17,089 nt of DNA from Clostridiales bacterium (GTDB lineage Bacteria > Bacillota > Clostridia > Lachnospirales > Lachnospiraceae). Below the pieces are notes generated by a model. It saw only the letters and a program-made list of their open reading frames with translations. It made no database searches and had not been told where the DNA came from. A program made the translations under genes and the position numbers. Positions 9,832-11,257 of the stretch are shown here, piece by piece (within the stretch, counting starts at the first letter, position 1; each line of letters opens with the position of its first letter). The stretch lies in assembly GCA_015655565.1 (NCBI GenBank), contig JAATEU010000403.1, positions 1-17,089 of the forward strand. Reading direction: 5' to 3'.

Positions 9832-11257
9832 AATAACGGGATTTAAAAAAGATTTTTTATGGGGCGGGGCGTTAGCTGCAAATCAATGCGAAGGTGCCTG
9901 GAAAGAAGGCGGAAAAGGCTGGTGTGTTGCTGATATTAATCTTTTCCGGGATGATATACCGCTTAATAAAAAGTACAATGAAGAAATAACGACTAAAGAT
10001 ATAAAAGCTGCAATGGAAGATGAAGAAGGAATTTATCCCAAAAGATGGGGGATTGATTTTTATCACACCTATAAAGAAGACTTGAAATTATTAAAGGGTC
10101 TTGGAATTAATAGCTTCCGTACCTCTGTCAATTGGGCCAGGATTTTTCCGAATGGTGATGAAACGGAACCGAATGAAGAAGGGCTTAAATTTTATGATGC
10201 ATTAATTGATGAGATCATGGCAAATGGAATGGAACCCTTAATTACCATTTCCCATTATGAAATGCCTTTAAACCTGACCTTAAATTATAAAGGCTGGTAT
10301 TCACGGGAAGTTATTGATTTCTTTGTGCGATATTGTAAGGTTTTATTTGACCGTTACAAGGGAAAAGTAAAATATTGGATTCTTGTAAATCAAATTAATC
10401 TGATTGTCCATGAATCCTTTAATCATCTGGGTATTGCAGAAGACAAAGCCGGGAATTTATTGGAGGCTAAGTATCAGGGCGTCCATAATGAAATGGTTGC
10501 CTGTGCAAGGGCAACCCGGTATGCAAGGCAAGGGGATAAAGATGCCCATATCGGCATGATGTTTTGTGACGGTATAAGCTATCCCGCTACCTGCAAACCG
10601 GAAGACGTACTGGCTACGTATAAGAGGAACCAGATGGAATTCTTATACGGGGATGTTTTACTCCGGGGAGAATACCCCGGATATGCCTTTCGTTTTTTTG
10701 ATGATAATAATATCCGCATAGAATTCGGCGGAGGTGATGAGGAAGAATTGAAAAATACTGCGGATTTCATGGCAATTTCCTACTACTACACCAGGATAAG
10801 TGACGCCGAAAGTGTGAAAAAGAAAAAAACTTCTTATGACAATCCCTGCATTAAATCCAGTGACTGGGGCTGGGGTATTGATCCCGCAGGCCTGCGGACA
10901 AAACTCAATATGTATTGGGACAGATATCGGCTGCCTGTTATAGTTGCTGAAAATGGAATGGGGGCTTTTGACAAGGTTGCAGAAGACGGAAGTATACATG
11001 ATGAATACCGCATAGAGTATCTGAGGGCGCATATTGAACAAATGAAGGAAGCGGTAATAGATGGTGTTGATGTGGCCGGCTATTATCCCTGGGGCCCAAT
11101 CGATATCGTAAGCTGTTCCTCTTCTGAAATGAGTAAAAGATATGGTTTTATCTATGTTGATTTAGACGATTATGGGAAGGGTACCGGTAAGAGAAGCCTG
11201 AAAGACAGCTACCGGTGGTATAAAAAAGTAGTCGAATCAAATGGGGAATTACTGTAG
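9818..11257 (+). CDS. GH1 6-phospho-beta-glycosidase with Gln at the acid/base position
   Basis: This 479-residue cytosolic enzyme of glycoside hydrolase family 1 should cleave the phosphorylated glycoside delivered by the adjacent PTS. Sugar-site residues are visible: Gln23 in NQCEGAW, Arg108 in [10 protein letters not shown], His146 in ISHYEMP. The nucleophile is Glu378 in [10 protein letters not shown]. The 6-phosphate region [15 protein letters not shown] (about 434-448) marks it as a phospho-glycosidase. The acid/base motif, normally TFNEI/TLNEP, reads LVNQIN: Gln192, codon CAA at 10391-10393. In GH1 a glutamine here is known from plant myrosinases, which hydrolyse thioglucosides with good leaving groups. 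The enzyme may therefore act on unusual aglycones, or be impaired on O-glycosides. GAAAGGGGAG precedes the ATG. Length is normal and there is no frame damage. Confidence 0.9.

Follow-up and report, generated by a model that had tools for sequence, protein, structure and literature searches.

A retaining glycosidase of family GH1 needs both a nucleophile and an acid/base residue, and a glutamate serves as the acid/base in the textbook GH1 mechanism. We have analyzed a stretch of 17,089 nucleotides from a Clostridiales bacterium (hereafter the window) that encodes a GH1 protein with glutamine at the acid/base position. The locus raises the question of whether this glutamine is an accident of one gene or the mark of a group of proteins, and of what such proteins might do. 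The features of the window that bear on this question are listed below.

7740..8072, plus strand: PTS IIB, lactose/cellobiose type (PF02302)
8213..9469, plus strand: PTS IIC, divergent member of the lactose/cellobiose family (PF02378; TIGR00410 at 156.3 bits, cut-off 236)
9469..9831, plus strand: PTS IIA, lactose/cellobiose type (PF02255), with a 14-base overlap with the GH1 start
9818..11257, plus strand: GH1 protein, QE type, 479 amino acids, Gln192 at the acid/base position, Glu378 as nucleophile
10391..10393, plus strand: CAA codon of Gln192, which stands in place of the acid/base Glu
10949..10951, plus strand: codon GAA for the nucleophile Glu378
11111..11143, plus strand: 6-phosphate-binding loop, residues 432-442 (Ser432, Lys440, Tyr442)
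11471..13405, plus strand: PRD/EIIA-domain transcriptional regulator of the type common beside Gln-type operons (PF00874, PF00359, HTH)
13630..15723, plus strand: second PRD/EIIA-domain transcriptional regulator (PF00874 twice, PF00359, HTH)
15863..16135, plus strand: HPr phosphocarrier (PF00381)
16146..17089, plus strand: gene for PTS Enzyme I, truncated at the end of the window (PF05524, PF00391 and the beginning of PF02896; 314 codons)

The Pfam Glyco_hydro_1 profile covers the whole length of the protein (residues 9-476; 383.1 bits against a cut-off of 22.6), and its predicted fold is the barrel of the solved GH1 members. The DNA between 10361 and 10420 includes tggattcttgtaaatcaaattaat, which is translated as W187-I-L-V-N191-Q192-I-N; at the equivalent, ungapped place the solved relatives 6wgd, 4ipl, 3pn8, 4f79 and 8ysv have TFNE(I/V)N. 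The initial annotation had placed a Gln at the acid/base position, and Q192 does align without gaps with the acid/base Glu of solved 6-phospho-beta-glucosidases. The protein thus departs from the GH1 pattern in its NE motif and retains the nucleophile Glu (E378, within AENG), which gives it the Gln and Glu catalytic pair of a classical QE-type myrosinase. Q23 and H146 are present and conserved, as are S432, K440 and Y442 of the 6-phosphate loop found in 6-phospho-beta-glucosidases (EC 3.2.1.86); we take the role of loop 432-442 in phosphate binding from known 6-phospho-glycosidase structures. The NCBIfam 6-phospho-beta-glucosidase subfamily is not reached (best model PRK09852, 506.8 bits against a cut-off of 623), and the IIC of the window is likewise under the NCBIfam cut-offs.

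Relatives were gathered in two protein searches, in which selection was by similarity and not by motif. The best 120 of 7984 matches in the first search include the window's own protein, and all 119 others (66-89% identity) have NQ together with the nucleophile Glu. The second search used a distant query from Pelolinea; among the 120 matches listed, 115 were new and every one of these has NQ and the nucleophile Glu. When both searches are joined, Gln192 and the nucleophile Glu occur in 235 of 235 distinct listed proteins, the window's included, and Glu at position 192 in none. Some listed proteins are automatically named 6-phospho-beta-glucosidase despite the Gln. CAA is one base from GAA, and a sequencing error at 10391 or the beginning decay of an ordinary 6-phospho-beta-glucosidase could account for a single Gln. 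Both are refuted by the Gln in all 234 other listed proteins, and we give them next to no credence; the gene is also full length and overlaps the IIA gene, in agreement with the earlier view that it is not decayed.

A scan of genome contigs yielded at least 80 loci; judged by the best GH1 protein of each, 48 belong to the Gln type and 32 to the Glu type. Both patterns used in the scan were taken from the Gln group, which biases the sample towards Gln. An enlarged set comprises 373 proteins: 234 listed ones, together with 54 Gln-type and 85 Glu-type proteins from the loci. All 288 Gln-type and all 85 Glu-type proteins have the nucleophile Glu. The contrast at Gln192 itself (288/288 versus 0/85) arises partly by construction, the locus proteins having been sorted on residue 192, and the independent evidence for fixation of Gln is provided by the listed proteins and the trees described below. 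Conservation was calculated with weights by cluster at 70% identity (64 Gln clusters, 47 Glu clusters). After weighting, R101, H146, N191, Y323, N342, E378, W425, S432, K440 and Y442 occur in 100% of the Gln group and in 98-100% of either group, the three phosphate-loop residues included, and Q23 occurs in 98% of the Gln group. The proposal that the glycone and phosphate site is otherwise intact is thus borne out by residues essentially fixed across the Gln group. In 58 Gln-type genes from the loci (with at least one organism counted twice and one fragment), Gln is encoded by CAG in 35 and by CAA in 23; both codons are in use, so it is the residue that has been kept, not the codon. The site is strongly constrained; a drifting, useless position would not remain Gln. 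Directly after the nucleophile, Cys replaces Asn379 (ECG versus ENG) in 8 of the best 120 of 7984 matches.

The Gln proteins form a single clade. In a GH1 tree of 123 rows, all 69 Gln rows (50 from loci and 19 from the protein search) group together with an SH-aLRT of 100 and no Glu row inside. Among 39 Gln and 37 Glu representatives, chosen by greedy clustering at 65% identity, the Gln/Glu split is supported at 100/100, and it is still supported at 100/100, with one change of state, when residues 186-205 are removed from the alignment. The initial annotation had proposed collecting the NQIN homologues to see whether they make up one clade; they do so with full support. The trees indicate that Gln arose once, in a large and widespread GH1 subfamily. 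By record title its members belong to Bacillota, Actinomycetota, Pseudomonadota, Chloroflexota and Synergistota (some of these records being metagenome bins, in which mixing can occur) and come from gut, rhizosphere, marine and food sources. Two proteins among the matches listed are named as from Spirochaetaceae and Treponema.

Within the window's phylum, an even sample of 249 genomes gave a match at 1e-140 in 10, with Gln in the window's genome and one other, a count that is a lower bound because distant Gln members fall below this threshold. At least 2 of 14 other genomes of the same genus carry a Gln-type gene, which looks like an accessory gene. Elsewhere in the window's genome there are six more GH1 genes of nearly full length, each with Glu (one match has an internal TGA). 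A second Gln-type gene is interrupted by the end of its contig and again located behind IIB, IIC and IIA. On contigs C382 and C397 (L142 and L143) stand the N-terminal part of this second gene, with an IIC 37% identical to the window's, and, at the end of the other contig, a GH1 C-terminal part; the two parts are possibly one gene split by assembly. On an Enterobacter ludwigii plasmid typed as conjugative (L094), a Gln-type GH1 gene at 6992-8431 lies near genes for a PTS IIC and a carbohydrate porin.

The gene order in the window is IIB, IIC, IIA, GH1, followed by the two PRD regulators, HPr and the start of Enzyme I, and the assignment of the GH1 gene to a PTS operon is confirmed by its place behind IIB, IIC and IIA. 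One genome of the same genus is 84% identical to the window in IIB, 84% in IIC, 76% in IIA, 87% in GH1 and 74% in the first regulator. Clusters of neighbours were built by all-against-all BLAST over the 48 Gln and 32 Glu loci, and their representatives were named by Pfam. Lac-type IIC is found in 31/48 Gln loci versus 2/32 Glu loci, IIA in 25/48 versus 2/32, IIB in 25/48 versus 2/32, and the PRD/EIIA regulator (cluster c2) in 28/48 versus 4/32. The reverse is seen for glucose-family IIBC(A), with 4/48 Gln loci versus 23/32 Glu loci, and for antiterminators with RNA-binding and PRD domains, with 3/48 versus 22/32. The Gln type is thus usually found beside separate lactose/cellobiose-type PTS genes and its Glu relatives beside a glucose-family beta-glucoside PTS; since Gln arose once, this association is a correlation with one independent event and is confounded by shared ancestry. 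Absences are soft, since many loci are cut off where their contigs stop and the mechanical gene picking missed some genes. A HAD-type hydrolase cluster occurs in 5/48 Gln and 2/32 Glu loci, and HPr, YitT and others in fewer; the operon neighbours in these 48 and 32 loci offer nothing decisive as a clue to the substrate.

Several other features of these loci were noted. Glu-type GH1 genes are also found in 7/48 Gln loci and are absent from the available stretch of the other 41, and two Gln loci have two Gln-type genes each. Tandem GH1 pairs join a Gln to a Glu type in L025, L041, L042, L051 and L055, and two Gln types in L027 and L036, as if the partners served different steps or different aglycones. 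The HPr and Enzyme I genes (15863-17089) adjoin the sugar-specific PTS operon, so that the locus has its own general PTS proteins; in Pelolinea (L044) an HPr gene also follows the Gln-type GH1. Between a GNAT gene and IIB, positions 7472-7514 contain a perfect inverted repeat, with arms of 16 bases and a loop of 11, that ends in TTTTG. This terminator-like sequence was missed by a terminator scan allowing loops of 3-8. A BlaI/BlaR1-like pair (Penicillinase_R, Peptidase_M56) is located at 3459-6138, and no beta-lactamase was found among the window ORFs scanned by Pfam.

Listeria monocytogenes NCTC7974 (L092, 5028-10405) has an orthologous operon of IIB, IIC, IIA, GH1 and PRD regulator, flanked by genes for a succinate-semialdehyde dehydrogenase and a vga(G)-type ABC-F protein. 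By gene order, this operon would correspond to lmo0914-lmo0918. Expression of lmo0917 is raised in soil extract (PMC3179493), of lmo0914-0916 inside host cells (PMC3464598) and of lmo0915 in infected mice (PMC2679221), and a prebiotics study includes lmo0917 in one of its pathway tables (PMC5750592). The data of these four papers, linked to the operon through these putative locus tags, name no substrate.

A retaining enzyme that has lost its acid could have acquired another. The enlarged alignment of 373 proteins contains no Asp, Glu or His that is both new and invariant in the clade, and thus no replacement acid is visible in the sequence. After 192 the most group-specific columns are 41, 274, 353, 199, 324, 366, 251, 202 and 204, none of which is an invariant Asp, Glu or His. 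Position 41 in the Gln group is His in 44% and Asn in 30%, with Gln and Glu also found; position 251 is Asp in 74% and position 274 is Gln or Glu in 92%, both unlike the Glu-type relatives. Further clade differences are found at positions 41, 189, 377 and 423, and these could bring back acid catalysis by way of water or variable residues. E199 and H203, candidates for a replacement acid from a first 20-row alignment of close relatives, were rejected, as both are absent in whole subclades. No strictly conserved, clade-specific basic residue that would mark an anionic aglycone was found in the alignment; K75 comes nearest (95% versus 40%). Most Glu-type relatives show gaps around positions 51-56, where the Gln type has additional residues.

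The interpretation that we favour, with a probability of roughly 45%, is that these are PTS-coupled relatives of the GH1 6-phospho-beta-glucosidases, of single origin and wide distribution, that have fixed Gln in place of the acid/base Glu and would form the glycosyl-enzyme without a general acid. A lactose/cellobiose-type PTS would import a beta-glucoside and phosphorylate it at C6, and the intact glycone site of the GH1 protein would hold glucose-6-phosphate for attack on the anomeric carbon by Glu378. The aglycone would depart unprotonated by the enzyme, as a good leaving group (a thiolate, the carboxylate of an acyl-glucose or an acidic phenol), or would alternatively supply its own proton; in the second step, which would release glucose-6-phosphate, Gln192 may hold a water molecule or a small anion. 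Since the general acid is gone and the rest has been kept, the substrate should have a leaving group that needs no proton, as in thio, acyl or acidic-phenol glucosides. According to PMC10591481, retaining glycosidases mutated at the acid/base residue can still use activated donors and small anions. We found no clade member with a measured activity. The wide spread of organisms suggests a common substrate, and ordinary glucosides fit this better than rare thio-glucosides.

The close known systems are the GH1 6-phospho-beta-glucosidases 6wgd (Bacillus licheniformis), BglA-2 of S. pneumoniae (4ipl), 3pn8 of S. mutans and BglA of E. coli (2xhy), from which the window type differs by the Gln in place of the acid/base Glu and by the extra residues at about 51-56. 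PMC6691170 describes classical QE-type plant myrosinases with the same Gln/Glu catalytic pair, so that the formal parallel drawn in the initial annotation is a fair one. The plant enzymes cut non-phosphorylated glucosinolates, whereas the window type is bacterial and has a phosphate loop and a PTS. That it works like a myrosinase is plausible by analogy; a common origin of the Gln in the two groups is unlikely, though the trees contained no plant row. The named near relatives and the best structures of the window protein are bacterial, and the absence of a plant myrosinase from the best 50 structure matches listed excludes nothing.

Several observations count against S-glucosides as the reason for the Gln, although they are a possible substrate, one option among thio, acyl and acidic-phenol glucosides. 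EE-type plant myrosinases, which have Glu, also cleave glucosinolates (PMC6691170), and thus Gln is not required for thioglucosides. The accessible part of PMC8660893 describes CfPttS and CfPbgS of Companilactobacillus farciminis, in which a PTS imports and phosphorylates sinigrin and a GH1 enzyme then acts on the 6-phospho-thioglucoside. CfPttS is a fused IIBCA PTS, here the typical context of Glu-type enzymes, and this pairing also argues against S-glucosides as the reason; CfPbgS resembles the window type in its pathway, and that part of the paper names no Gln for it. The sources of the clade are also wider than the plants that make glucosinolates. More tentative than the acid-free mechanism itself is the idea that bacteria long ago fixed, once, the combination of an acid-free QE-type GH1 and a PTS as a dedicated route for activated 6-phosphorylated glucosides (thio, acyl or acidic-phenol), now in at least five phyla; this would be a phosphorylating counterpart of myrosinase by convergence. 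Among the open-licence titles and abstract beginnings in PubMed Central, no bacterial GH1 clade with this Gln is described; subscription papers lie outside this scope and may have it in print.

The same exchange has been made by design in a GH1 6-phospho-glycosidase, the E170Q laboratory mutant of Gan1D (4ze5, 4zfm), whose chain differs from wild type exactly at the NE motif (NE to NQ) in chain alignments. The structure titles call it a catalytic mutant, in one case with cellobiose-6-phosphate. By analogy this suggests that E to Q here halts the cleavage of ordinary 6-phospho-disaccharides, although the Gln of the window type was fixed by evolution across a clade, with changes around it. The Gan1D mutant bears on a less probable alternative, in which ordinary O-linked 6-phospho-beta-glucosides (cellobiose, gentiobiose or aryl glucosides) are hydrolysed with a proton from another side chain by way of water, or from the aglycone, and Gln192 only binds. 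The spread over phyla, an operon like those for ordinary disaccharides and the differences from Glu-type relatives at positions 41, 251 and 274 would fit such a relocated or substrate-assisted acid. However, these positions vary within the clade, whole subclades lack E199 and H203, and the mutant was crystallised with cellobiose-6-phosphate, to judge from the structure title. One clade member among the matches listed for the Pelolinea query (P0235) is named as from Clostridioides difficile. The cel operon of C. difficile is reportedly needed for growth on cellobiose; if P0235 is the GH1 protein of that operon, the case for a relocated acid gains much.

Two other uses of an acid-less site appear unlikely, and to a similar degree. 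The glycosyl-enzyme might be resolved by an anionic acceptor such as phosphate or a carboxylate instead of water, in a transferase or phosphorolytic reaction with products such as glucose-1,6-bisphosphate or a transferred glucosyl-6-phosphate. Small anions do rescue acid/base mutants of retaining glycosidases (PMC10591481), and a site without the negative Glu would admit them, but there is no conserved clade-specific Arg/Lys pair for an anion, K75 apart, and the few neighbours scanned include no conspicuous candidate for handling such a product. The protein might also be non-hydrolytic and sense or bind a phosphorylated glucoside, thereby contributing to the regulation of the PTS operon, as the loss of the acid/base residue and the PRD regulators in the operons would allow; the Glu-type GH1 of 7/48 Gln loci could then do the hydrolysis. 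A binder, however, would not need the nucleophile Glu and its surrounding residues, which are fixed as in active enzymes, and 41/48 Gln loci have no Glu-type GH1 in the available stretch.

The conserved loss of the textbook acid in a bacterial GH1 subfamily is real and formally parallels the Glu to Gln change of the plant mustard-oil enzymes. The acid is missing from hundreds of GH1 proteins, and either a class of substrates of gut, soil and marine bacteria has been overlooked or GH1 enzymes can hydrolyse in the ordinary way without their usual acid. Such natural acid-less enzymes would be starting points for the synthesis of thio- and acyl-glycosides. Bacteria with a QE-type GH1 probably cleave unusual glucosides or use an unfamiliar variant of the textbook mechanism.
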